Source: an uncultured Arenicella sp. (GTDB lineage: Bacteria; Pseudomonadota; Gammaproteobacteria; Arenicellales; Arenicellaceae). From it: a DNA stretch of 64,000 nucleotides. Shown piece by piece: positions 3,950 to 64,000 of this stretch. Each line of letters opens with the position of its first letter. Position 1 is the stretch's first letter. The stretch is taken from the NCBI GenBank assembly GCA_937974565.1, contig CALJWL010000018.1, positions 62,001 to 126,000 on the forward strand, given 5' to 3'. Below the pieces are notes generated by a model. That model did not search any database. It saw only the letters and a program-made list of their open reading frames with translations, and had not been told where the DNA came from. The translations under genes and the position numbers were made by a program.

Positions 3950-6220
3950 CTAGCGGCCGATTTTATGGTATTGACCCGCCGCTGGATTACTGATCACTTT
4001 CTCTTTACCATTCGCCCAAGTCACTTTAATCTGATCGACCTTATTAAGCTTGCCGAGACCAAAGTGTACATTTGACGAGTGCTGAGACGAGAATGAGTCA
4101 CCCGTAACCAAGCGATTGAACTGGCTGCCTTCAGCCGTGGTTATTTCAACCGTAGCACCAATGGTTGACAAGCCTTTTTCATCGCTTAACTGCACGCCTA
4201 TCCAGTTACCCGCCTGTGAAAACACGTTTCTATATACGTGCAAGCGGTAGCTGGTCTTATCCAAACCTTTGGCTTCGTGTTCGACCACTAGCAAGTCTTT
4301 GCGGCCGTCTAGGTCAATATCTTCGGTCACGACCGCGCGTGCATCGTACTCAAACGCCACGCCCATCAAATAGGCGATATTAATGTATTCATTATTGTGC
4401 TTTAGGTAGAGAACTTTGTGTTCATAACCATTCCACGAGATATTGGCTTCCCTAAGGTCAGTGGACTCGGATTGAAATAAGATATCGCGAGCCACGTTTT
4501 CAGCGCCCTCTTCGTAGATATCATGGCGCCAGAAGGTCGTGCAATAATCTTGTGTGCTTTCGCCGCTGTAATGACCGTTGGCGACAAAAATGTCTTTATC
4601 GCCATCGTTATCAAAATCAAAGCTGCTGGTGCCCCAAGACCAACCTGTTCTGGCTACTTGATCGTTAAATGACGCTTTCTCAAAACCATCACCGCGGCGC
4701 AAAAACATGCGATTGCCATACCCCATTGCGTTACGCATTTCGGTGTGTTTTTTTAGATCCGAACGCCCAACGCCTAACTCTTGTAGGCGACGAGCGGTGG
4801 TGGAACTCATGCCAATCACATAAAAGTCTAACTTACCATCACCGTCAAAATCATCAAAGGTGTGACCCATGCCGAAAAAGTGGCGATCAAGCCCAAAATC
4901 ATCGGTTATATCGGTGAAGTTTCCTTTACCGTCATTGGTGTACACATCAAAACCGGCGTAATCACTGACAACGATTAGGTCCATATCGCGGTCGTCGTCT
5001 AAGTCCACAAACGAACTGCTGTAGGAACGCCTGTTGCGTTTTGAGGCCAGACCCGAAGATTCGGTGATATCGGTAAATTTCCCCTCCCCATCGTTACGCA
5101 ACATAACGGCTGGAAAACCATCGTTTGCATCAAAGTATGGGCTGGGCATTTGTCCTTCACGATAGGCGTATTTGTAGTTGGCTATGTGGATATCCAGGTC
5201 GCCATCGCCATCGACGTCACCTGCTGTAAAGGTTTTCGGTAACCCCAGTCTGGTGTCATCCATTTTGGTTGGCTCACCTTTGAACTCGCCTTTTTCGTTG
5301 CCTTGAAACAACAGTGGATACCCGTTACTGTCTACCCCAACAAAGTCCACCTGCCCGTCACCCGTGAAATCAGCAATAACGGCACCGTCGTACATCGCGC
5401 GAGCCTTATCGAATAGTTTTTCAGCCACTAACTGACCGTTACCTTTGTTACGCAGTATGGTGTTTTGCCCGCCAACGACGATTTCAGAAAGGCCATCTTT
5501 ATCCAAGTCATACACCAACAAAGGATGAATAAGCGGAGAGTTTTCAGAACCCACCACGTTAAAGACTTCCTGAAAAATGGGCGGCTGCTCACGCTCTAAA
5601 ATAGTGAGTTTAGTTACATCGATGGTGTCGGCTTGGATATCGACATCGGCATTCAAGCTCACCAACCACGTAATATCCATCAACCCTTTAAGCACAATGC
5701 GGTGCGCCGGTTCAGCACGTGCAATATGTAACTCAAAGCTCACCTCGGAGATCGCCGCCTCACCGTTTTGAGGCGGCGTAAAACCACTGTGATGCCATTC
5801 TGTTTGCTCAAGCACATAACCATCTTTAACTGCGCCCGCCAAAAAGCCTAACCAACGTTGTGTGTTCCACGTTTGTCCCACACCGTCGCCAAAACTGTAT
5901 TGAGCAATTCGGTGCTGAAGGGGCTCACTCTTTTGATGTTTGGGAATGCTTAGCGAGCTAAACGTGAAATTAGCCAATGTCTCAAATTTCTTTTGTGACT
6001 TTAGCAAATCATCCCACAGCTTAACGATGCGAGTTTCGTATTGCTGCGCCAATACCTCTGGCCCCCAAATAAGCTGATCAAGCTTACGCCTCGTTTCCAC
6101 CAAACTGATGGCTTCATCTCGATTTTGTGCAAATTCCTCCTTAGTGGGCCCTGGCGTCTGTGCCATTAAAGCGCTAGAAGAAAAGACGATTAATGCGATT
6201 ATAAATTTTTTCACTTTCAA
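3950..6220 (-). CDS. CRTAC1-like secreted VCBS/FG-GAP repeat protein with ASPIC/UnbV C-terminus
   Basis: The 756-residue protein begins with a Sec signal peptide (MKVKKFIIALIVFSSSALMAQ). From about residue 240 it carries seven Ca-binding FG-GAP/VCBS motifs of the form D-x-D-x-D-G-x-x-D, for example DLDKDGLSEIVVGG, DVDGDGDLDIHIAN and DFDNDGDKDIFVANG, which predict a seven-bladed propeller. The last ~85 residues, with STIGATVEIT and VHFGLGKLNKVDQIKVTW, match the ASPIC/UnbV domain that follows such propellers in CRTAC1-like proteins. An N-terminal region of about 220 residues is not recognised. The protein should act outside the cytoplasm. The family has no firm enzymatic role; binding of ligands or cell-surface partners is the usual proposal. 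Confidence 0.85.
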   Translation of the reverse strand: MKVKKFIIALIVFSSSALMAQTPGPTKEEFAQNRDEAISLVETRRKLDQLIWGPEVLAQQYETRIVKLWDDLLKSQKKFETLANFTFSSLSIPKHQKSEPLQHRIAQYSFGDGVGQTWNTQRWLGFLAGAVKDGYVLEQTEWHHSGFTPPQNGEAAISEVSFELHIARAEPAHRIVLKGLMDITWLVSLNADVDIQADTIDVTKLTILEREQPPIFQEVFNVVGSENSPLIHPLLVYDLDKDGLSEIVVGGQNTILRNKGNGQLVAEKLFDKARAMYDGAVIADFTGDGQVDFVGVDSNGYPLLFQGNEKGEFKGEPTKMDDTRLGLPKTFTAGDVDGDGDLDIHIANYKYAYREGQMPSPYFDANDGFPAVMLRNDGEGKFTDITESSGLASKRNRRSYSSSFVDLDDDRDMDLIVVSDYAGFDVYTNDGKGNFTDITDDFGLDRHFFGMGHTFDDFDGDGKLDFYVIGMSSTTARRLQELGVGRSDLKKHTEMRNAMGYGNRMFLRRGDGFEKASFNDQVARTGWSWGTSSFDFDNDGDKDIFVANGHYSGESTQDYCTTFWRHDIYEEGAENVARDILFQSESTDLREANISWNGYEHKVLYLKHNNEYINIAYLMGVAFEYDARAVVTEDIDLDGRKDLLVVEHEAKGLDKTSYRLHVYRNVFSQAGNWIGVQLSDEKGLSTIGATVEITTAEGSQFNRLVTGDSFSSQHSSNVHFGLGKLNKVDQIKVTWANGKEKVISNPAAGQYHKIGR

Positions 6221-53191: not shown

Positions 53192-54769
53192 ATGACTGAT
53201 TTTTCTTCAGACTCTCGCATCAAGCCCATACGCGCACTGATCAGCGTATCCGACAAAACCGGCGTATTAGAGTTCGCCCAGGCCCTGCACACTGCCGGAG
53301 TTGAAATTCTGTCAACCGGCGGCACAGCCAAGCTGCTCGCCCACAACAATGTTCCGGTTACAGAAGTGTCTTCCTATACCGGCTTTCCAGAAATGATGGA
53401 CGGTCGCGTTAAAACCTTACACCCCAAGGTACACGGTGGCATTCTCGGGCGTCGAGGCACCGACGATGCCGTAATGCAAGAACACGGCATTTCCCAAATC
53501 GATATTGTGGTAGTAAACCTCTACCCGTTCCAACAAACTGTGGCCGACCCTAATTGCGACTTACCCACCGCCATCGAAAACATCGATATCGGCGGACCCA
53601 CTATGGTGCGCTCAGCCGCTAAAAACCATAAAGACGTAGCCATTGTAGTAGACGCCAGTGATTACAACAGTCTGGTCGAAGAAATCAATCAAGGCGGCCT
53701 AACTTACGCTACTCGCTACCGATTGGCCACTAAGGCATTTGAACACACAGCCCAATACGACGGCGCCATCGCCAACCATCTTGGCCACATTCAAAACGAC
53801 GGCAGCAAAGCCGATTTTGCACGCACCTTTAACGTTCAATTCAAACATCAACAAACCATGCGTTATGGTGAGAACCCACATCAGAAGGCGGCTTTTTATG
53901 TAGAAGAAAACGCGCCTGTCGGAATTTCCAGCGCCACACAAATTCAAGGCAAAGAGCTGTCTTATAACAATATCGCTGACACCGATGCGGCTCTGGAGTG
54001 TGTCAAACAATTTGATGGCACACCGGCGTGCGTGATCGTAAAACACGCCAACCCTTGTGGCGTTGCCGTTGCTTCCACCTTATTAGAAGCCTACAAGAAG
54101 GCTTTCTCTACCGACCCTGAGTCCGCCTTTGGTGGCATTATTGCCTTTAACCAAGAGCTGGATATTGAAACCGCTTCACTGATTTTAGAAAAACAGTTTG
54201 TCGAGGTCATCATTGCCCCTAGCGTCTCAGACGCTGCCAAGGCGGCCATTGCCAACAAGAAGAACGTACGCTTATTGGAATGCGGGCAGTGGAATGAGCA
54301 CTCTCACAACGCCATTGAATACAAGCGCGTTAACGGTGGTCTGTTAGTACAGGACAATGATTTAGCCTTAACCGAAAAGCTTGAAGTGGTCACCAAAGTT
54401 CAACCCACACAAAAACAAATGGTCGATCTTCAATTTGCATGGAAAGTCGCCAAGTTCGTTAAATCAAATGCCATTATTTACGCCAATCAGAACATGACCA
54501 TCGGTGTTGGCGCTGGCCAGATGAGCCGCGTAAACTCAGCTCGCATCGCGTCTATCAAAGCCGATCACGCGGGCCTTGAGGTCAAGGGCTCCGTTATGGC
54601 CTCAGACGCGTTCTTCCCGTTCCGCGATGGAATCGACAACGCCGCGGCGGCAGGCATAAGCGCTGTCATTCAACCCGGCGGATCAATGCGTGATGAAGAA
54701 GTGATTGCCGCGGCCGACGAAGCTGGCATGGCCATGGTGTTTACCGGCATGCGTCATTTTAGGCATTAG
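53192..54769 (+). CDS. purH: Bifunctional AICAR transformylase / IMP cyclohydrolase
   Basis: The ATG at 53192 gives 525 residues; the frame also opens at a TTG four codons earlier. The N-terminal MGS-like domain reads [19 protein letters not shown] and [10 protein letters not shown], with [18 protein letters not shown] marking the IMP cyclohydrolase. The C-terminal transformylase has [12 protein letters not shown] with the conserved Lys-His pair, and [15 protein letters not shown]. It carries out the last two steps of purine synthesis to IMP. In many gammaproteobacteria purD follows purH; here a restriction-modification pair starts 30 bp later. Confidence 0.96.
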
Positions 54770-54799
54770 TCTAGAGCGTAAAGCCCTCAACGGAAAACA

Positions 54800-56722
54800 A
54801 TGACCATTGATTCACAATACGATTTTCTTAATGAAGATCTTATTTCTGAAGATCATGACTTTTTCGACTCACCCGTCGCTTGGTGGGATAGTTTTGGTGA
54901 ATACATTCGCCAATTTTCTGAAAATGATCGAGCTTCAATAAAGACACTAAGCCTATTTAGTGGCGCCGGAGGGCTTGATATAGGTTTTCATGATGCGGGC
55001 TTTGATATTATAGAGGCCGTCGAACTGGACCCAAAACTTGCGGCCTCACTTGAAGCTAATATAGGGAATGGGAAGTACTTAGGCCCTGATACGAACGTGA
55101 TAGTGGGCGACATTTGCGAATACGACCCTAAAGTCACTGATATTGAATTCATAATAGGCGGGCCACCATGTCAATCTTTCTCAGCGGCTGGCGCACGTGC
55201 CTCTGGCGTGGCAGGCACCAAGGATTCTCGGGGAAACTTATTTCAAGAATACGTCCGTATTTTAAACAAGCTTAAGCCTGCAGGGTTCTTGTTCGAGAAT
55301 GTTTATCGCATTTTAGGGGCCAACAATGGCAAGGATTGGGAAGAAATCAGATCAGCCTTCTCTAACGTTGGGTATGATTTAACTTTTCGTGTTCTTGATA
55401 CAGCAGATTACGGTGTTCCACAAAATAGAGAACGGTTGATCATTGTGGGGGTTGCTAATGGCCGCACAAGGGAGCTTGCATTTAATTTTCCAAGGCCAAC
55501 GCACGGACCTGATTCTCGAATAAAAAGGAAATACTCAAGCGCTAGTCAGGCTTTAATTGGTGTGACTGAGAGGCCTGATAAGAACAGCTTAACAGGAAAA
55601 TACGGGCCATTATTAAACGATATTCCGCCCGGTCTGAACTATTCATTTTTTACGGAAAAAATGGGACACCCAACGCCTATATTTTCTTGGAGATCCAAAT
55701 TTTCAGACTTTTTATACAAATCCAACCCCGATGAGCCTGTCAGAACAATCAAAGCACAAGGAGGGCAATACACAGGCCCGTTTCATTGGGATAGCCGACC
55801 ATTCTCAAAACAAGAATTTAAACGGTTACAAACTTTTCCTGACCGTTACGACATGATTGGATCAAAGGCCACTGTAATAAAACAGATAGGTAACTCTGTC
55901 CCTCCTCAATTTGCGCGAATGCTTGCATTGTCTATTAAGGAGCAAATTTTCAAGCGTAATAGCCCATTTGAAATAGACACAATAGACACTGACTTTGTTT
56001 TGTCATTTCGCAAACACAAGAGCGCTCGCACCGCGAAATATCGGGATTCGGCTAAAAGAGCAATTGAGATGTTATCTCCTTTGAGTCCTACCTCTGATGC
56101 GTTACCGAAAACCGTTACGTATGATTTGGGAGACAATTTCAACCTCTCAACAATGCCAACGGATAAGTACAAATGTACGATTATTAAAAAATCTGCTCGC
56201 TTAACCTTTAACACAGCGCAAGCACCCGTTAACGAAAACGCCAAGATTATTATTACCCCAATTAATCAATGGCCCCTTCCATTTGAATCGGTCACTCTGA
56301 TTTTTAACCCAAAGCATTGGCAATCTTATACATCGGCTTGGAAAATTTTCGATCTTTATCTTTCAAAAAATAGTTATAAAGCAGACTTAGAACAATTGAA
56401 CGGTTATTACCAATACGAATCAAAATTAGATTGTCGCTTGGTCTCTAAAGCCAGCACTATGTTTAGTTCAATGGACACTCGGCTTTTGAAACTCATAATC
56501 GCAGGCAAGCTAACGCAACGAAAAATGTCTGCAAATGAAATTTCAGAGATTTCGAACCTAAATGAAAGTAACGTGCTAGATCAATTAAAACAACTCAAGA
56601 AAATTGGTTATGCAATAAGAAACTCAAACACCAACGTTGCCATGGATGAAAATATATTTTTGATTCCTTATAGCTTCCCAACACTTAACCCTCTGAGTGT
56701 TCAACTTAATAAAGAAATATAA
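54800..56722 (+). CDS. DNA C5-cytosine methyltransferase with C-terminal extension
   Basis: The 640-residue enzyme has the C5-methyltransferase motifs in order after a ~48-residue leader: motif I TLSLFSGAGGLDIGFHDAGF, motif IV GGPPCQSFS with the catalytic Cys, motif VI in FLFENVY, motif VIII QNRERLIIVG, and motifs IX/X with RTIKAQGGQYTGPF and QIGNSVPPQFA. About 230 residues follow motif X. Their last part (NEISEISNLNESNVLDQLKQL) resembles a winged-helix DNA-binding domain. It should methylate cytosine within a specific site and protect the host from the nuclease gene that starts one base after its stop. The codon usage and AT content differ from purH next door. Confidence 0.9.
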   Translation: MTIDSQYDFLNEDLISEDHDFFDSPVAWWDSFGEYIRQFSENDRASIKTLSLFSGAGGLDIGFHDAGFDIIEAVELDPKLAASLEANIGNGKYLGPDTNVIVGDICEYDPKVTDIEFIIGGPPCQSFSAAGARASGVAGTKDSRGNLFQEYVRILNKLKPAGFLFENVYRILGANNGKDWEEIRSAFSNVGYDLTFRVLDTADYGVPQNRERLIIVGVANGRTRELAFNFPRPTHGPDSRIKRKYSSASQALIGVTERPDKNSLTGKYGPLLNDIPPGLNYSFFTEKMGHPTPIFSWRSKFSDFLYKSNPDEPVRTIKAQGGQYTGPFHWDSRPFSKQEFKRLQTFPDRYDMIGSKATVIKQIGNSVPPQFARMLALSIKEQIFKRNSPFEIDTIDTDFVLSFRKHKSARTAKYRDSAKRAIEMLSPLSPTSDALPKTVTYDLGDNFNLSTMPTDKYKCTIIKKSARLTFNTAQAPVNENAKIIITPINQWPLPFESVTLIFNPKHWQSYTSAWKIFDLYLSKNSYKADLEQLNGYYQYESKLDCRLVSKASTMFSSMDTRLLKLIIAGKLTQRKMSANEISEISNLNESNVLDQLKQLKKIGYAIRNSNTNVAMDENIFLIPYSFPTLNPLSVQLNKEI

Positions 56723-56723
56723 A

Positions 56724-58034
56724 ATGGACGAGTTTCTAAAAGTTTGCCATGCTAAAAGTGAGCTTCATACCGATGATGGTGAAGTAACAGTTTTCAATGA
56801 GGGAAAGTTATCTGAAGATGCTATTTTGCGCAATAAGATAATTCGCTCAACTCTTGAACAAGGTTTTTTAAGCCGACTTATAGATGACGTGCTTGCCGGC
56901 GACACGGCTGACGTCGTTATTGACCAAACGCACATCGACCTCTTGGATGGATTAGTAAACTCAATCACAAGTGAAGTTGGGCGGGCTTTAGTCGGATTAA
57001 CGGTTCTTCAACTCAGCATTAAAACAATAGCGAAAGAACAATCAATTCGACTGCATAAAGGCAGCACCAATAAAAATGCTTTTTCGTGGTCAGAAGGAAT
57101 ATCCATGAGAACATTAGATAAGAGCTATATAACACCCGTATTGAGAAAATACGATTTATTGAAGCTTAATGCAGACGGCTTCATGATGACTAGAAGCCTC
57201 GCCGAAAACTACCCATACACAAGACTCTATAAAGCGGCTGTCAGAGGCGCAAAAGCTCAATGGATCGAGATCACAGATGAATTGGAGCGAGGGGCGCTAG
57301 ACCCAGAAAACGGGCTCAGATATTTATTGTCGATCTTAATAAATCAATCGGAAAATTTTAAGATCTCGGTTGAGAACGTAATCAAAAGCAAAGACTCTTT
57401 TCTCTCTAGTGAACCCAGTGCGGAGTCCGTATTTTCTTTGATCGTGGACTTTATAAAACGATCAGAATACGGTGCTAGAGTTTTCGAAGTCTCGTTGCAT
57501 TCAGCTTATCAAGCATTAGACGAAATGGGGCGCGTAGAAGGATACCTCAAATCTCTATCTCAAATGAGATCTGCAAACAAGAAACATGGAAACATCGGAG
57601 ATATTGAGATTTTAAAATCTAATATCGGCGTAATTATTGAAGAGTCTTGGGATGCAAAGTATGGAAAAACAGACTTAAGAGAAGAGGTTGAAGAGATTGC
57701 AGAAAAACTGGCATCGCACCCTGATTGTGAAATCGCCGGCTTTATTACCGATCAACAGCCCACGTTAAGCGATGGGCTTTTAGATCGTATGGAGCAAATA
57801 AGCGAATTTTATGGCTGTAACGTCGAAATACTTTCATTCGCTGATTGGTACAAAAACCTAGTAGAAGAAATGGGTGCTCAAGAAGTATCAACTTTTAATA
57901 AATTATGGCTAACGGCTATAACTGAAAGCTTTGGACAACGAAGAAGAAAGCAAGCCCCCATAGATGAGCCTTGTGAGCTTTGGATAGAAACGTTGTCAGA
58001 AATATTGAATAAAAGGCAGAAGAGTAAGGCTTAA
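56724..58034 (+). CDS. Putative type II restriction endonuclease (PD-(D/E)XK type)
   Basis: The ATG at 56724 starts one base after the methyltransferase stop, giving 436 residues. A stretch near residues 285-315 reads KKHGNIGDIEIL, then ESWDAKYGK. Asp293/Glu295 and Asp310-x-Lys312 fit a PD-(D/E)XK metal site of a restriction nuclease, where Asp replaces Glu in the second acidic position. The N-terminal half is helical, with no other catalytic motif. Coupling to a C5 methyltransferase is the typical arrangement of a type II system. The family name and recognition site cannot be read from sequence. A different nuclease or modulator would also fit. Confidence 0.65.
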   Translation: MDEFLKVCHAKSELHTDDGEVTVFNEGKLSEDAILRNKIIRSTLEQGFLSRLIDDVLAGDTADVVIDQTHIDLLDGLVNSITSEVGRALVGLTVLQLSIKTIAKEQSIRLHKGSTNKNAFSWSEGISMRTLDKSYITPVLRKYDLLKLNADGFMMTRSLAENYPYTRLYKAAVRGAKAQWIEITDELERGALDPENGLRYLLSILINQSENFKISVENVIKSKDSFLSSEPSAESVFSLIVDFIKRSEYGARVFEVSLHSAYQALDEMGRVEGYLKSLSQMRSANKKHGNIGDIEILKSNIGVIIEESWDAKYGKTDLREEVEEIAEKLASHPDCEIAGFITDQQPTLSDGLLDRMEQISEFYGCNVEILSFADWYKNLVEEMGAQEVSTFNKLWLTAITESFGQRRRKQAPIDEPCELWIETLSEILNKRQKSKA

Positions 58035-58216
58035 CCTTCACGTAAGTCATCAATTGAGGTTTCTCCAAGGTTAGTTTTTTGACTGAGAACGTAACTTTCA
58101 TGCTTCAGATGCAGAAGGTCAGATGGCGCAGCAAAAGGCACTATTAATATAGTTTCTTTTTCCTTTGATGTTAATAGTTGCGCATCCCTTACAAAGTTTA
58201 GTCCCGGCAATTGTGG
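58031..58216 (-). pseudogene. Truncated 3' end of an unknown gene
   Basis: A minus-strand frame ending at the TAA 58031-58033 encodes protein-like sequence: NFVRDAQLLTSKEKETILIV, then AAPSDLLHLKHESYV and TSIDDLREG at the end. It has no start codon of its own and runs into the end of the IS3 remnant, so its 5' part was probably lost when that element inserted. It overlaps the tail of the nuclease gene by 3-4 bp. I do not recognise the family. Confidence 0.4.
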
Positions 58217-58547
58217 TTCAATTTGGTTCGCCCCGGACTCGTCTGAGACAGTTTTATCTGAGTCACGAAGCTTTTCGTAACCCAGGGTTTTGATAATACA
58301 TTAATTCATACTCCGCCAGAGGCATGTCACCAATGGGTTGAAGTATTCGTCGTTTGTTGAACCAGTCTACCCAAGTGAGCGTTTCTCGTTCAACATCCTC
58401 AAGTCCACGCCACGGTCCGTCTTTGTAAATCACTTCTGCCTTGTAAAGCGAGTTAATGCTCTCGGCCATCGCGTTATCATAAGAATCACCAACGCGGCCG
58501 ACCGACGCTTTAAAACCCGCTTCCATGAGTGACTTTAAATAGCAAAA
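58217..58547 (-). mobile_element. IS3-family insertion-sequence remnant
   Basis: One terminus looks like an IS3 inverted-repeat end, with TTGGTTCGCCCCGGACTCG near 58215-58234. The element continues through the transposase 3' end and is cut off at 58547, where the 182-bp att-like repeat begins. The other terminus and the rest of the transposase are absent, so it is immobile. Confidence 0.65.
58263..58547 (-). pseudogene. IS3-family OrfB transposase C-terminal fragment
   Basis: The minus-strand fragment carries FKASVGRVGDSYDNAMAESI and LTWVDWFNKRRILQPIGDMP. This is the end of the DDE integrase core, where the Glu in NAMAESI is the third catalytic residue of the family. The N-terminal DD part is missing. 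A short reading frame continues to 58577, but the first residues come from the repeat, not the transposase. Confidence 0.8.
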
Positions 58548-58729
58548 TGGCCAGGGACAGAATCGAACTGCCGACACGGGGATTTTAAGTCGCGATCTAA
58601 AATAGTAAATCTATATTAATCAATCACTTAATGGCGTAGTTAAACGAAATCGGTAACAGTTTAGAATCAGTAACTTAGGGTAATTTAGCGAAAGTTGTAA
58701 AAACTTGTGTATGTACTGAATTTGTCACT
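58548..58729. repeat. Attachment-site repeat copy A (tRNA-Phe 3' end)
   Basis: This copy is 182 bp, the same length as copy B at 62557-62738. The first 39 bp are identical and read, on the minus strand, as the anticodon-arm 3' side, T arm and acceptor 3' strand of tRNA-Phe. The anticodon loop here is altered (CTTAAAA instead of CTGAAAA) and the encoded CCA is missing. The remaining ~140 bp are conserved in blocks such as GCGAAAGTTGTAAAAACTT. The stop codon of the helicase gene lies within its end. Confidence 0.75.
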
Positions 58730-60914
58730 CAACATCTATTGTATAGCCCATTACTTTATAGCCTTTCTCACGTTTTTTAAACATGCGTTGTAGCATGGGC
58801 AGCGAGGCATCGACATAGTCGTAAATAGTGACCTGTTCTTTCCCTTCCGATTCTCTATGGATTCTGCCCGCATACTGCGCTAATGAACCTTTCCATGAGA
58901 CTGGCATTGCTAAAAATAAAGTGTCTAGTCTCGGTAAATCAAACCCCTCACCAATGTACTTGCCAGTAGCAATGATAACTTGCGCGTCAGATAATTTTTC
59001 ATTCGCAAGTTTTAATTTCTTTGCCCCCATTGCACCTCTGAGAACAACAGCGTTGATTCCTTCCTTTGTCATGAGTTTATGCAAATATTCGGCATGTTGG
59101 CGTCTTTCGGTTAGTACTAGCGGATTCTTGCCAAGCGATATTTGAGCTATAACATCGATTACGATTAGCGCTGAACGAGCTTCGTTTTCCATTATCCAAT
59201 GGTAAACATCTGAGATTTTAGGGCGCGTGCCTTGCTCTAGGATTGCAGTAGGAGGGTGGTGGTCTAATTCTCTGACGATTACCTTTTGCTCAAAACGATC
59301 TGAATGAGTTGGTTTTACGTTGTGGCGAATGGGGCCGGCTATCATGAAAATTATTTTTTGATGACCGTCCTGTCTGTAAGGTGTCGCGGTTAATCCAAGC
59401 ACATACTTCGCTCTCACTTCGTTCAGTACCATTTCAAAGCTAGGCGCTGATATATGGTGACATTCGTCGATAATTATTTGGCCGTAGTCTTGTACTATTT
59501 CGTTGACGGTATTGTCCTTTTTGTTAATCAAGCTTTGGTACGTTGCAACATCGATCTGCCCACTCGGTCTTTTCTTTGAGCCATGAAAGACGCCTACTTC
59601 GACACCCTCTAGGAAAGCTTTTAGGCGCTCTTGCCACTGACTTAGTAACTGTTTGCTATGGGTTAATATTAACGTATTGGTCTTTCGTTTTTTAATGATA
59701 CCGATCGCAGTGACGGTTTTACCAAATGCGGTTGGGGCATGTAATACGCCGTTATCATGTTTAGCAATGGCATTAACCGCTTTAGTTTGGTCCTTACGAA
59801 GTTTACCGAGAAATTTGAGTGTCGTTAATCGATCGCCCCCATTTCGCTTATCATCTATTTTAGCTTCCACTCCTTGTTCATTTAACAGGGACAACAGATC
59901 GTCGTAGCAGCCTCTGGGAAGTGACAACCATTTTTCTCCTCCAGGCCCATTTTCTATGCGTGCGCAACTAATGTACCTCGGTATTCCGTGGGTAGAAAAG
60001 CGCATTGCCTGGGTTTTGAAGAACACGGGGTTAGAAAAACTTGCTAACCTTCTAGCTCTGGCAATAAGTGGTGCGGGAAGATCATCAATTTTTAGATAGA
60101 TATGGTTTGCCAACGTAATAGTAACCGCGGTTGGCACGTGTTGAATCTTTTCGACTACTGTTTTCGCACTGTACTCCCACGGCAGTAAGTTTCCTGATTG
60201 ATTGAGTTCGTCATTAACAGTCTTAGGTGCTGCTCTTGTAAGAGTTTCGTATAGTTTCTTTGGAGATACCGAGCTTACTTCGCTGAGGAGGCGCCATTGG
60301 TTTTCATGAGGCCTTAATTGACCATCTACAAATTCCGTATACCCTTTCTTCCTTGCTTGGAGTTGCATAGGAAGTGCAATAAGATTTCCAAATCCCCCCT
60401 CCGGCATTAGATCTTGGTTTGGAAACAATCTATCATAAGAATCGAATGACAAATTCGGGTAGCTTTCCATTGCTTTGTCCAAAATAGAAAAGCCGAGTAA
60501 TCTTGCATCTTTAGCTGGTACTGATTCAGAGAAAAATACCCAAAGGTGTGCTCCTTGCCCGGATTGAGATATTTCAACAAGGTAAGGAATATTTAGCTCA
60601 ACGCAGGATTTAGCAGTGGCAGTAATCGCTTCTTTCCAGTCACTTCTATCAAAATCAGCAGCGATTAAATGACAACTATTATTTTGCAGTAAGGGGTAAA
60701 GGCCAATGACTTTCTTACCAGCAAGGTGTTGATAAATAACCTGTTCGTTTATTGGTTTAAATCTCTGATTGGCACAATCCATGCATTTGACTTTCGGTTT
60801 ATGGCAAATTTTCGGAACCCACTCATTGTCGCACGCGACAGAGTAGCCGCTTCTACCTTGCGTATTTTGCCATCGGTTAGCAAATACATCTGTTCTTCCT
60901 TTAAACAGACTCAT
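58725..60914 (-). CDS. AEP primase–helicase fusion (TOTE conflict-system type)
   Basis: The 729-residue protein starts SLFKGRTDVFANRW and has Cys at 28, 37, 44 and 47 (possible zinc site). A primase-like domain follows: AADFDRSDW with Asp87/Asp89, and SGQGAHLWVFF with His123, as in archaeo-eukaryotic primases. From ~residue 380 it is a superfamily II helicase: Walker A HAPTAFGKTVTAI (~391), IIDECHHISA (~481), LGLTATPYRQDG, and the C-terminal motif VI region QYAGRIHRE. This order matches proteins described by comparative genomics as part of TOTE conflict systems, thought to act against invading DNA. The usual coiled-coil leader is present upstream but behind an in-frame TAA, so the protein may be truncated or made in two parts. 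Confidence 0.8.
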   Translation of the reverse strand: MSLFKGRTDVFANRWQNTQGRSGYSVACDNEWVPKICHKPKVKCMDCANQRFKPINEQVIYQHLAGKKVIGLYPLLQNNSCHLIAADFDRSDWKEAITATAKSCVELNIPYLVEISQSGQGAHLWVFFSESVPAKDARLLGFSILDKAMESYPNLSFDSYDRLFPNQDLMPEGGFGNLIALPMQLQARKKGYTEFVDGQLRPHENQWRLLSEVSSVSPKKLYETLTRAAPKTVNDELNQSGNLLPWEYSAKTVVEKIQHVPTAVTITLANHIYLKIDDLPAPLIARARRLASFSNPVFFKTQAMRFSTHGIPRYISCARIENGPGGEKWLSLPRGCYDDLLSLLNEQGVEAKIDDKRNGGDRLTTLKFLGKLRKDQTKAVNAIAKHDNGVLHAPTAFGKTVTAIGIIKKRKTNTLILTHSKQLLSQWQERLKAFLEGVEVGVFHGSKKRPSGQIDVATYQSLINKKDNTVNEIVQDYGQIIIDECHHISAPSFEMVLNEVRAKYVLGLTATPYRQDGHQKIIFMIAGPIRHNVKPTHSDRFEQKVIVRELDHHPPTAILEQGTRPKISDVYHWIMENEARSALIVIDVIAQISLGKNPLVLTERRQHAEYLHKLMTKEGINAVVLRGAMGAKKLKLANEKLSDAQVIIATGKYIGEGFDLPRLDTLFLAMPVSWKGSLAQYAGRIHRESEGKEQVTIYDYVDASLPMLQRMFKKREKGYKVMGYTIDVE

Positions 60915-60929
60915 GAATAGCCTTACCTT

Positions 60930-61082
60930 TTAATCGGTTGAAAGCACTGCTGAGTGTTGGGCGTTGGTATTTGAGGTCGCGTCGCTATCTAACAGAGCTT
61001 TTTGCTCTATCAACAGTTCGCTTTTTTGTCGCTCTAGTTCTACTAGCTGTTGTTCGATAATTTTTAGTCTATCTTCATTCAT
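60930..61082 (-). CDS. Coiled-coil leader peptide, in frame with the primase-helicase
   Basis: This is a 50-codon frame from the ATG at 61082 to the TAA at 60930-60932. It encodes EQQLVELERQKSELLIEQKA, a clear coiled coil. It is in the same frame as the helicase gene: after the TAA come five codons (KVRLF) and then its ATG, with no frameshift. Relatives carry a coiled coil directly before the SLFxGR motif, so this is probably the original N-terminus, split by a single stop. No strong ribosome binding site precedes the ATG. Confidence 0.55.
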   Translation of the reverse strand: MNEDRLKIIEQQLVELERQKSELLIEQKALLDSDATSNTNAQHSAVLSTD

Positions 61083-61154
61083 TCACTACATGCCAGTGTC
61101 GCTTCTGACTATTTAATATTCCCTAGTTGGTTTGTTCAGGGTTCTATATCGAAT

Positions 61155-62318
61155 TCACTTTCGAAACATAGCGATGAGTTTTTGCATTAGGCTTTCTAGA
61201 GACACTACGTTTATGTCATTTGGCAATTTATATTCATCATCGCCTAGATGAACTACCCATTTTGATGTTGGGTTTATATCTTCACAAGCAATATGGAAGC
61301 CTTTGCTTAAGGTAGGAGCGCTTGAGCGCTTTATTTCAATGGCAATTAACTCGTCCGCAAAATTTAATAGAAGGTCTATCTCAACGCCGGTTGCCGTTCG
61401 ATAGAAGTAAGCATCTACATTACGTGGGCAAATAGACAGAATGTTTTCTATCACAAACCCCTCCCAGCTATTGCCAGAAACTGGATGACCTAATAAACCG
61501 TCATAGGTAGAGATATTTAGTAGCGCGTGAACTAAGCCGCTATCACGAACATAGGTCTTGGCGCTTTTCACTAGGCGCTTTTTTGTATTAGTGTGCCATG
61601 GTCTTAATTTTCGCACCAACATCAGGTCGACCATTAAATCAAGATATCGGCTTGCAGATTGACCTGAAATTCCAAGGCTGCCAGCCATTTGAGCTGCATT
61701 GAATAACTGCCCCTGGTTGTGCGCAAGCATGGTCCAAAATCGTTGCAGTGTCTCTGCTGGTACGCGCATACCTAGCATTGGAATATCACGTTCCAGATAT
61801 GTTCTTATAAAGTCTAAACGCCAATTTAAGTCATTGTCTGCGTTAACAAAAGCTTCAGGGAAACCTCCTCGCAGCCAAAGAGCCCCTTCGTTTTTCTGAT
61901 CGACTTCTAATAAGTTGAGGGGAAATAGTTCTTGATACGAGATGCGCCCTGCTAGTGATTCTGACGATTGGTTCAATAACTCGTTAGATGCCGAGCCCAA
62001 CAATAAAAACTGAGAGAATGTATGGCCATTACGTCGGTTACGATCAATTTGGCTTCTCAAGATGGGAAATAAATCAGGCCGTCGTTGCACCTCATCAATA
62101 ATGATCAGGCGGTCAGTATACTGGTCAAAGTAATAGCTTGGATCACCAAGCTTTTGAATATCTCGAGGATCTTCAAGGTCAATATAAACACTTTCAAGGT
62201 TGTCTGATAGCTTATGAGCGAGAGTGGTCTTGCCTACTTGCCGTGGACCTAATAATGCAACGGCGGCCGACTTTTGAAGTTGAGCTTCTATTTTTGAGTA
62301 AAGTTGTCTTTCTAGCAT
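61155..62318 (-). CDS. AAA-type ATPase with DUF4143 C-terminal domain
   Basis: The 387-residue protein has Walker A ALLGPRQVGKTTLAHKL (~residues 21-37) and Walker B DRLIIIDEVQRRPDLF, then a sensor-like LLLGSAS segment. The C-terminal DUF4143 part begins near GNSWEGFVIENIL and contains GVEIDLLLNF plus IAIEIKRSSAPT, a PD-(D/E)XK-like arrangement (E...D...ExK). Such ATPases are common in mobile and defence regions, and their exact role is not settled. The gene is 73 bp upstream of the coiled-coil/helicase genes on the same strand, so they may be transcribed together. Its promoter overlaps an operator-like palindrome. Confidence 0.88.
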   Translation of the reverse strand: MLERQLYSKIEAQLQKSAAVALLGPRQVGKTTLAHKLSDNLESVYIDLEDPRDIQKLGDPSYYFDQYTDRLIIIDEVQRRPDLFPILRSQIDRNRRNGHTFSQFLLLGSASNELLNQSSESLAGRISYQELFPLNLLEVDQKNEGALWLRGGFPEAFVNADNDLNWRLDFIRTYLERDIPMLGMRVPAETLQRFWTMLAHNQGQLFNAAQMAGSLGISGQSASRYLDLMVDLMLVRKLRPWHTNTKKRLVKSAKTYVRDSGLVHALLNISTYDGLLGHPVSGNSWEGFVIENILSICPRNVDAYFYRTATGVEIDLLLNFADELIAIEIKRSSAPTLSKGFHIACEDINPTSKWVVHLGDDEYKLPNDINVVSLESLMQKLIAMFRK

Positions 62319-62428
62319 GCTTGTAAATATAACACTCTATGGAATATTTACAATGTTTGCACTTGAGTACACATGGTTGTATATCTTCCAAGTTTTAGAG
62401 AATTTACAATAATGAGAGTGCTGTAAAT
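62316..62428 (-). promoter_or_regulatory. Operator-like palindromes over a possibly leaderless promoter
   Basis: Two TGTAAATA-type inverted repeats occur here: TGTAAATA (62322-62329) with TATTTACA (62345-62352), and ATTTACA (62402-62408) with TGTAAAT (62422-62428). On the minus strand, TTGTAA, a 16-bp spacer and TATATT form a reasonable promoter directly over the first palindrome. The -10 box is only a few bases before the ATG at 62318, so the transcript may have almost no leader. A repressor binding here would block RNA polymerase. Confidence 0.45.
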
Positions 62429-62556
62429 AGCATACTCATTGGCCATATGAGTATTAGAGACAATCAAAAATGTACTGATTTGTACCGTTTAATAACTATT
62501 TTATTGGTGAAATAATAAGGGGATATATAAGTGATTGATTCTAATATAGAAAATGG

Positions 62557-62738
62557 TGGCCAGGGACAGAATCGAACTGCCGACACGGGGATTTTCAGTC
62601 GTGGAATCAAGCCGTAAATCTATATTAATCAAGGGTTTACTAGCGTAGATAAGCGTAATCGGTAACAGTTAAGAATCAATAAGTTAGCTTAATTTAGCGA
62701 AAGTTGTAAAAACTTATGCGTGTACTGAATTTGTCACT
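62557..62738. repeat. Attachment-site repeat copy B (tRNA-Phe 3' end)
   Basis: This copy is 182 bp, aligned with copy A without net length change. On the minus strand it starts in the anticodon loop CTGAAAA (anticodon GAA, Phe), passes through the T arm and ends with CCTGGCC, discriminator A and an encoded CCA just outside (62554-62556). The 5' half of the tRNA is absent, because similarity stops right before the anticodon loop. It is therefore a displaced 3' end, as left by an island integrating into tRNA-Phe. Confidence 0.75.
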
Positions 62739-62867
62739 TAGAATCGTAGGAGTTTGTCCTTGATCTTAAGTCTTTATGTTCTAGACTTGATGATTCAGGG
62801 ACCAAATTTATGGTAGGCAATGGCCGATCATTTTGACAACTAAAACACACATAATGGGGGTGAATTA

Positions 62868-63335
62868 ATGACTGACACAGTGGCTATTCTCACTGCTTTA
62901 ACCGCGCTCGCCGCAGTTGTATTCGCGCCGTTGATTTCTATCTACGTAACGAATAAGCAGATTAATGCGTCGACTGTTTCAGCTAATCGTCAGGCTTGGA
63001 TCAATCAGCTAAGAAACGAGTTAGCTGCATTGATTACTATAATAAGGCACGTCCCTTCTGCATACCATGCAGATACACTTTCCGTAGGCGAAGCTATTGG
63101 TAAGCATGGGGAGATGACTAATCGTGTTGAGGTAGTCAAGTTGCTTATCAACCCAGGCGAGACTAACCATAAAGAGTTGGTGCGTTTAATAGAGTCTGCA
63201 AGCATCAAAGTTATCGATGCTATAAATGCCAAGCACGCAAATGCTACAGAGTTAGAAAAAGCCGCCGAACGTATAGTCGATATGTCTCGTCTGATTCTGA
63301 AAACCGAATGGGTCCGAGTAAAGAACGGTACTTAG
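62868..63335 (+). CDS. Small membrane-anchored hypothetical protein
   Basis: The 155-residue protein has a good ribosome binding site (GGGGGTG 7 bp before the ATG) and one N-terminal membrane helix (AILTALTALAAVVFAPLISIYV). A mostly helical cytoplasmic part follows, starting NRQAWINQLRNELAALITII. The RQxWIxxLR stretch after a single helix occurs in small proteins near phage and defence genes, but I cannot assign a family. It sits 60 bp upstream of a multi-pass membrane protein on the same strand, so the two are probably an operon. Confidence 0.65.
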   Translation: MTDTVAILTALTALAAVVFAPLISIYVTNKQINASTVSANRQAWINQLRNELAALITIIRHVPSAYHADTLSVGEAIGKHGEMTNRVEVVKLLINPGETNHKELVRLIESASIKVIDAINAKHANATELEKAAERIVDMSRLILKTEWVRVKNGT

Positions 63336-63394
63336 TAAGAGATTGGGACTGAACATCAAAACTGAATTCCACCTTTAACGTAGCCCGTCCGACC

Positions 63395-64000
63395 ATGATT
63401 TTTATAGTGCCTATTTTAATGATTGTCGCTTTATCGACAGCCGCGTATTTCTATTTCAGGTTTACGATGATCGATCATCGATATCCCGATAAGAGCCCTA
63501 GTAAATGGGTTTGTATCGTATTTGGTATTATTGCAGGTTATATGGCGTTAAGTTCTGGTGCAATGGTCGAACAGGATCCAGCTATAGCAGCAACATTCGC
63601 GATGTTTGTTCTAGGTTTAATAACGGGTCCTGCAATAGCGCCTCCAGCGTATATTGATAAAGAGCAATTCCCAAAGTTCACCACCAGATTAATCGAACAA
63701 ATTAAAGGGAAAGTCTCAGGCGCAATTTTCCTTAAGCTAGTAGCTTTGATCGTTGGTTTTTGGCTTTCTTTATTCACTGACTATTGGTATTGGCTAATAG
63801 CAATAGTTTGCTGCTTTTTGATTTTTTCTAAAGGAGCTTCAATCGCTCTTTCACTGAGCCATGACCCAAGTGGGCTTCCGGATGGTGACGTTGTTTTGAT
63901 ATGGACCAAAAAATCTGTAGGAGCAATATTATGTTTTGCTGCAATCTGGTCCGCAGGGCCGTTTATGGTTTTCTCGGAAATAGAGTTCGTGCCATCTACC
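63395..64000 (+). CDS. Multi-pass membrane protein, 3'-truncated by window edge
   Basis: A reading frame runs without a stop from the ATG at 63395 to the last base, giving 202 codons. Hydrophobic spans include MIFIVPILMIVALSTAAYFY, GIIAGYMALSSGAM, FVLGLITGPAIAPPAYI, LKLVALIVGFWLSLF and YWLIAIVCCFLIF. No ribosome binding site is obvious, and a second ATG nine codons later may be used instead. No family can be named from this part. It follows the small membrane-anchored gene by 60 bp. Confidence 0.6.
   Translation, partial: MIFIVPILMIVALSTAAYFYFRFTMIDHRYPDKSPSKWVCIVFGIIAGYMALSSGAMVEQDPAIAATFAMFVLGLITGPAIAPPAYIDKEQFPKFTTRLIEQIKGKVSGAIFLKLVALIVGFWLSLFTDYWYWLIAIVCCFLIFSKGASIALSLSHDPSGLPDGDVVLIWTKKSVGAILCFAAIWSAGPFMVFSEIEFVPST

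Follow-up and report, generated by a model that had tools for sequence, protein, structure and literature searches.

An integrase-less 4-kb element, probably of the cis-mobilizable type, in tandem with an integrative and mobilizable element at tRNA-Phe of an uncultured Arenicella sp.

Introduction

How does a segment of DNA come to lie between two copies of the 3' end of a tRNA gene when it carries no integrase of its own? The question is raised by a 64-kb stretch from an uncultured Arenicella sp. (the window: bases 62001-126000 of contig C18, in a host assembly of 72 contigs that we refer to as genome G000). A preliminary description of the window had reported two direct repeats on either side of a segment of about 4 kb and had proposed that a single tRNA-Phe gene was used repeatedly as an integration target. 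Here, we argue that the segment is probably an element like the cis-mobilizable elements (CIMEs), with both attachment ends and no recombination genes, in tandem with a 14.1-kb integrative and mobilizable element (IME) in the 3' end of tRNA-Phe. The composite structure is well supported and mobility in trans is possible.

Results

Repeats A and B are 3' ends of tRNA-Phe joined to element arms

To describe the locus we begin with its two repeats, A (58548-58729) and B (62557-62738). As first reported, they are direct copies of 182 bp; they are identical at 156 of 182 bases and lie 4,009 bp apart, and a gap-free alignment of 58548-58736 with 62557-62745 gives 85%. The 39-bp match to the 3' part of tRNA-Phe is exact in A (nt 35-73), and B matches exactly over 47 bp (nt 30-76), CCA end included. 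The break had been placed just before the anticodon loop. Both copies do hold a tRNA 3' fragment, but in B this part spans the whole loop and ends inside the 5' strand of the anticodon stem. The remaining 138 bp of each repeat is non-tRNA sequence, which we call the element arm; the copies agree at 43 of 44 bases in the tRNA stretch and at 113 of 138 in the arm. Attachment cores and arms are arranged as follows.

58548-58591, minus strand: A, a displaced tRNA-Phe 3' fragment and distal attachment core of the 4-kb element, with an anticodon base change relative to B and one TGG of the TGGTGG (CCA) end gone
58592-58729, plus strand: distal arm of the 4-kb element, with motif TGTACTGAATTTGT at 58712-58725
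62420-62553, plus strand: proximal arm of the 4-kb element, with motif TGTACTGATTTGTACCG at 62471-62487
62554-62600, minus strand: B, an exact tRNA-Phe 3' fragment and the boundary of the two elements
62601-62738, plus strand: distal arm of the IME, with motif TGTACTGAATTTGT at 62721-62734

Elsewhere in the window the best 182-bp stretch matches A at no more than 75 of 182 bases, and ARAGORN found zero tRNA genes in the 64 kb. Nor is the repeat widespread apart from tRNA sequence: full-length matches to it in 61 genomes all start with a tRNA-Phe fragment. The distal arm and core of the IME are 91% identical over 185 bp to the start of a contig of a related genome, G006.

An intact tRNA-Phe with an adjoining integrase lies to the right

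If one tRNA gene had been used repeatedly, an intact minus-strand tRNA-Phe was predicted to the right of the repeats, next to a tyrosine recombinase. Both are present in the host assembly, and the case of a tRNA located elsewhere with no integrase does not arise. The intact gene is on the minus strand at C18:138666-138741 (window-equivalent 76666-76741), 14,111 bp from B. A tyrosine integrase, INT, adjoins it (C18:137509-138546, window-equivalent 75509-76546, minus strand; PF00589 3.7e-31). These findings support repeated use of the gene as a target, and INT belongs to the neighbouring element rather than to the 4-kb element. Further features of that neighbour are listed below.

62554-64000, no strand: left end of the 14.1-kb IME, the remainder lying beyond the window
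about 67272-68201 (window-equivalent), plus strand: Mob_Pre relaxase, PF01076 3e-28
about 73830-75431 (window-equivalent), minus strand: C5 methyltransferase

The stretch from B to the tRNA also holds, among others, two cytosine-methyltransferase- and ATPase-like genes. No type IV secretion system (T4SS) domain was found in the 12 proteins scanned with Pfam, smaller frames being outside the scan. Because this element has its own integrase and a relaxase without a T4SS, we class it as an IME.

INT is an open frame of 345 codons with ATC at the site of its relatives' ATG. It has no ATG, GTG or TTG start; the sequence reads TGA-CGT-ATC-GCT after GAGGTGA (C18:138540-138550; locus L005 near 19740). 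INT of G006 shows the same, and the relatives in G004 and G015 have ATG. An AUC start could possibly keep the integrase scarce. Three PF00589 matches of the host genome are long enough for whole enzymes (312, 322 and 345 aa). Judging from rank and size, the first two would be the paired Xer recombinases present in each genome, and INT is therefore likely the sole helper integrase in the host. A decayed INT relative, with an internal stop and in two pieces, adjoins tRNA-Lys at C37:69732-70357 of the same genome.

C18 terminates 62 bp past the tRNA, and its final 141 bp recur exactly at the start of C11. The latter contig holds the same tRNA-Phe together with a yggX-like frame and mutY. (The labels yggX, Fic, AbiE, PIN, HigBA, DUF262, rhodopsin, LodA and, for a transposase fragment, IS3 were assigned by eye, with no family search.) This exact overlap suggests a branch of the assembly graph at tRNA-Phe, and there may be more than one state of the site in the sequenced population, but the branch base is at odds with excision of either element.

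The 4-kb element keeps both ends and has no recombination genes

We next describe what A and B enclose.

58725-60914, minus strand: AEP-TOTE primase-helicase, 729 aa (PF22548 7.4e-93; ResIII 8.7e-29; Helicase_C 5.1e-09)
60930-61082, minus strand: 50-aa coiled-coil-like reading frame, in frame with the TOTE gene and separated from it by a single TAA
61155-62318, minus strand: AAA_14/DUF4143 protein, 387 aa (PF13635 2.5e-43; PF13173 1.1e-24; PADLOC candidate PDC-S01 3.7e-88)

No integrase had been seen in the segment, and this held up: a hidden Markov model (HMM) built from 12 integrases found none between A and B or anywhere in the 64 kb, and none of the PF00589 matches of the host genome falls inside the window. 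A Pfam scan of the two large proteins, the only search made for a serine recombinase, yielded none. It likewise returned no relaxase or T4SS domains (frames below 100 aa being outside the scan) and no TPR, OB or TBP domains. Since only the AEP-TOTE/helicase protein and the DUF4143 protein were found, we do not class the element as a TOTE system despite its TOTE-type primase. PADLOC places the 729-aa protein closest to its PrimPol model. Going by family names, the TOTE and DUF4143 proteins may have roles in defence or in conflict between elements. G+C content is 41.3% in the 4-kb element, 41.0% in the IME and 45.0% in window bases 1-54000.

Two further features of a CIME are present. The element is flanked by direct repeats of the target-gene end, A and B being tRNA-Phe 3' fragments with arms, and it stands in tandem with an element that shares an attachment site, namely the B-to-tRNA element with INT and Mob_Pre. 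We found no integrase-bearing version with the same cargo in the genus, where TOTE occurs in 2 of 18 genomes and the DUF4143 gene in 2 of the 10 searched.

The arrangement suggests the following history. Site-specific recombination in the anticodon-loop region of tRNA-Phe would have brought the elements in, each integration restoring the tRNA and shifting the old 3' end leftward. Since core A has decayed and B, the distal core of the IME, is intact, the IME would have arrived later. For the same reason (A is changed in the anticodon loop and is one TGG short, and B is exact) the left element looks older, and recombination at A may have been lost. INT, acting via TGTACC arm sites spaced by 11 bp, could excise the IME alone (B with tRNA); alternatively it could excise the whole composite (A with tRNA), in which case the 4-kb element would be carried along.

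The two ends of a unit tend to share arm sequence

Arm motifs go together with the integrase. In G000, G006, G004, G015 and G005, the arm that separates the tRNA from INT holds two copies of TGTACC at a spacing of 11 bp, and other 11-bp-spaced repeats are found in G013 and at both ends of an element of G003 with a 446-aa integrase. The motif TGTACTGATTTGTACCG at the right end of the 4-kb element has slightly altered versions in the same place at the right ends of the integrase-less elements of G003 and G007. The best stretch common to both ends of the 4-kb element is ATGTACTGA-ATTTGT. Its two copies lie 116 bp into the element from the distal end and 85 bp away from the proximal core, roughly the placement seen in integrase-bearing elements (109-119 and 94 bp in G003, G004 and G015). 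A pattern written as TGTACTGAN{1,2}TTGT occurs three times in the window (arm A, the right end of the 4-kb element and arm B), against 0.00 expected.

We compared the arms of 13 units with both ends on fetched contigs, 9 integrase-less and 4 with an integrase. Two arms from one unit were more alike (mean local score 23.1) than two from different units (16.9; 0 of 20,000 permutations), and this was also seen among the integrase-less units alone (p = 0.0086; 8 units, one G039 copy dropped). In 5 of 13 units, the 4-kb element among them, the within-unit pair took the top rank. In a generic search, direct repeats of 10-12 bp were significant only beside INT (0 of 2,000).

Several observations weigh against reading the locus as two elements that were, or still are, moved by an integrase. 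The base change in the anticodon loop of core A and its missing TGG may block recombination there. The within-unit pair was not first in 8 of the 13 units: the IME ranked 6th of 13, two G026 units came 7th and 9th, the two copies in G039 were 6th and 3rd, and three others 2nd. The units compared are those that happened to be assembled, and the TGTACTGAN pattern was picked with the sequences already in view. Measured against shuffles, the end-to-end match of the 4-kb element has p = 0.09, and generic direct repeats of 10-12 bp are nonsignificant in A (0.41), B (0.11) and the right end of the element (0.40). 

Relict or mobile unit

The most serious alternative, to which we give a little less than an even chance, is that deletions removed the integrase and transfer genes of an old IME, and that the 4-kb element is what was left of it, immobile, when a second IME came. 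Such a history is how CIMEs are usually explained in the parts of PMC7563491 and PMC5704250 consulted, and the order seen here, with the integrase-less element farthest from the target gene, agrees with the rule given in the former. Damage is also evident: besides the state of core A, the TOTE gene is interrupted near its start relative to G003 and G007, in which the stretch matching the 50-aa frame runs uninterrupted into the TOTE start, and a transposase fragment abuts A. Against such a relict, the proximal end still has its arm motif at about the expected place. Moreover, G003 and G007 share the motif without an integrase at that end, so that loss of the integrase would have to predate their separation or to have been repeated.

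A second possibility is that the element is an active non-autonomous satellite: with its two arms retained, it would depend on INT-type integrases that act in trans for both integration and excision. We regard this as rather unlikely. Among the related genomes, a mutY match was obtained in 10 of 18 of the genus, and in 6 of these 10 an INT relative adjoins tRNA-Phe (whole in G000, G004, G006 and G015; cut by the contig end in G005 and G013), which supports the main reading of a composite at this gene. INT relatives elsewhere sit at tRNA-Lys, tRNA-Met and tRNA-Gly. The empty site sought in a related genome has a candidate in G011, which looks like one: it has one tRNA-Phe match only, unrelated genes downstream and no INT relative. 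The tRNA-Phe of G009 sits at a contig end, and G008 has an A-type arm with the last TOTE residues (88.3% over 231 bp). In G003, an integrase-less DUF4143 element is separated from tRNA-Phe by an element that has a different integrase. In G007, TOTE and a Fic-like gene lie directly against the intact tRNA-Phe with no integrase between.

A satellite would account for the same proximal arm on integrase-less elements of three species (G000, G003 and G007) and for the position of the G007 element, although the left end of the latter is off the contig. It would also fit the DUF4143 proteins of G000 and G003, which are 94.1% identical despite a MutY identity of 58.4% (purH, 76%) and a gene found in so few of the genomes searched. 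Identity of the corresponding DNA is, however, no higher than 84.0%, with differences at 71 of 149 fourfold sites (mutY, 60 of 91). Any transfer between the two lineages must therefore be old, and part of the 94% is due to conservation of the protein. The element may thus have been transferred after the species split, though not recently; a recent transfer is ruled out by the fourfold sites, and this lowers the odds of mobility in trans. The TOTE genes of G000 and G007 diverge as a housekeeping gene does (107 of 168 fourfold sites; mutY, 71 of 104), with no sign of transfer.

Other integrase-less units are known only where they fit on fetched contigs, so their number is not a frequency. Units of 1.1-3.4 kb between tRNA-Phe 3' fragments, with no integrase inside, are present in two related families, in G026, G044 and G053 (family f2) and in G042 (family f9). 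The G042 unit is next to the intact tRNA, but the neighbouring INT-like gene is itself truncated. Two tandem PIN+TOTE units of 3,513 bp, identical over 3,352 bp, lie beside tRNA-Ser in G039 (L103, G039:C280, 517-7543). They are bounded by 29-bp tRNA-Ser 3' ends, contain no integrase and have the end of a third related unit to their left. This pair would favour a satellite, but the tandem may reflect amplification or an assembly effect.

That the TOTE primase-helicase is itself the engine, making TOTE elements mobile without an integrase, is very improbable. In G000, G028 and G039, TOTE does lie beside a tRNA gene, a fragment of which is duplicated, and no integrase intervenes. In G028 (L101, G028:C62, 644-5106), TOTE and two AbiE-like genes lie beside an intact tRNA-Phe. 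The 5' half of this tRNA is present again as a 40-bp copy at 5067-5106, on the far side of TOTE, with similar sequence beyond, as if the unit had integrated at the 5' side of the tRNA. Yet among 61 TOTE loci of named genomes such a duplicate spans TOTE in just one, the G028 contig again, and for 18 of the 61 the stretch fetched includes an integrase, in many cases about 1.3 kb upstream of TOTE; 98 plasmid records also carry TOTE. TOTE, found in 9 of 109 order genomes (E at most 1e-100), looks like cargo, and as a marker of a self-mobile family, which G028 and G039 had hinted at, it is not borne out by the 61 loci. At marine gammaproteobacterial loci including L113, L116, L118, L119 and L133, the integrase ends about 1.3 kb upstream of TOTE, with HigBA-like genes between the two at some; these are an integrase-bearing relative of the island type. 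A link to phages was also discarded, viral contigs yielding no TOTE relative and a single distant INT relative (33%).

Ordinary segmental duplication or homologous recombination without integration, a general possibility for repeats that are 86% identical, is scarcely plausible: both copies start with the same tRNA 3' fragment, the break is at the site usual for tRNA-targeting integrases, homologous arms follow such fragments in G006, G008 and G004, and an intact tRNA with an integrase lies to the right.

The left flank of repeat A

Outside the composite, one feature runs up to and into repeat A.

58263-58577, minus strand: C-terminal fragment of a transposase (rve_3 PF13683 3.3e-10)

purH lies 3.8 kb left of A and is oriented toward it (window 54769-58548); in G004 and G015 it is 124 and 78 kb away from the island and in the opposite orientation. 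Because of this placement, and because the transposase fragment touches A, the comparison suggests an inversion junction at A. Two genes follow purH (54800-58034). One encodes a C5-cytosine methyltransferase extended at its C terminus, the other a 445-aa protein for which there were zero Pfam or PADLOC matches; the two are perhaps a restriction-modification pair.

Discussion

We conclude that the 4-kb element of this Arenicella sp. is probably a CIME-like element in composite with an IME at tRNA-Phe. In the sections of PMC5704250 and PMC7563491 available to us, a CIME is an element that has lost its integration and transfer genes and kept attL and attR, with an IME in the same target gene, and the composite excises or transfers. 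The streptococcal composites described there with an IME or an integrative and conjugative element (ICE) resemble ours in several respects: an integrase-less element with both attachment sites and an IME occupy the 3' end of the target in tandem, the order is CIME, IME, target gene, and the size of 4 kb is within the 1.2-13 kb of classical CIMEs. They differ in host, target, integrase and cargo, which here are a gammaproteobacterium, tRNA-Phe, another integrase, and a TOTE primase-helicase with a DUF4143 protein. As far as PMC7563491 was covered, CIMEs are always farthest from the target gene, unlike G007, G039 and G042, where an integrase-less unit lies next to the intact tRNA.

Related arrangements are known from other systems, again from partial views of the sources. 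The Dehalococcoides ssrA islands (PMC3146451) are likewise tandem and bounded by repeats of the target gene's 3' end, and 15 of them without an integration module were termed possible cis-mobilizable elements by their authors; that system has a serine recombinase module and the tmRNA gene, ours a tyrosine integrase and tRNA-Phe. With the TOTE conflict systems (PF22548; PMC12458937) the element has in common a primase domain of the AEP-TOTE family, in its 729-aa protein, but unlike those systems it combines this domain with DUF4143 only, and none of the TPR, OB and TBP domains turned up in its two larger proteins. Clusters of attC sites lacking integrases (CALINs) and miniature inverted-repeat transposable elements (MITEs) are also non-autonomous, keep their recombination sites and take the recombinase from elsewhere (PMC11389934); their sites are integron attC sites and transposase ends, respectively, rather than tRNA-type attachment sites of a tyrosine integrase. 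In a literature search of partial coverage, no paper turned up that describes a TOTE element without an integrase at a tRNA gene. With the tandem arrangement already known from Streptococcus and Dehalococcoides, the locus is for the most part a new example.

As such, it extends the known CIME-IME-tRNA composites by a clean case from a gammaproteobacterium. It also offers a signature, an arm motif common to both ends at a fairly constant distance from the core, that pairs integrase-less units with a candidate integrase. A broader conjecture, which we hold to be quite unlikely, is that integrase-less units with matched arms form a class of their own: cassettes of 1-4 kb, often with TOTE or toxin-like genes, that would be serially integrated in trans into tRNA genes by any tRNA-targeting tyrosine integrase recognising the arm motif. 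The 3' side of tRNA-Phe would then behave as a cassette array that grows slowly, and not as a graveyard for IMEs in decay. If such units do move in trans, tRNA genes in this order would be building up arrays of cassettes, and one would have to revise the rule by which elements without an integrase are always the most distal and the most decayed.

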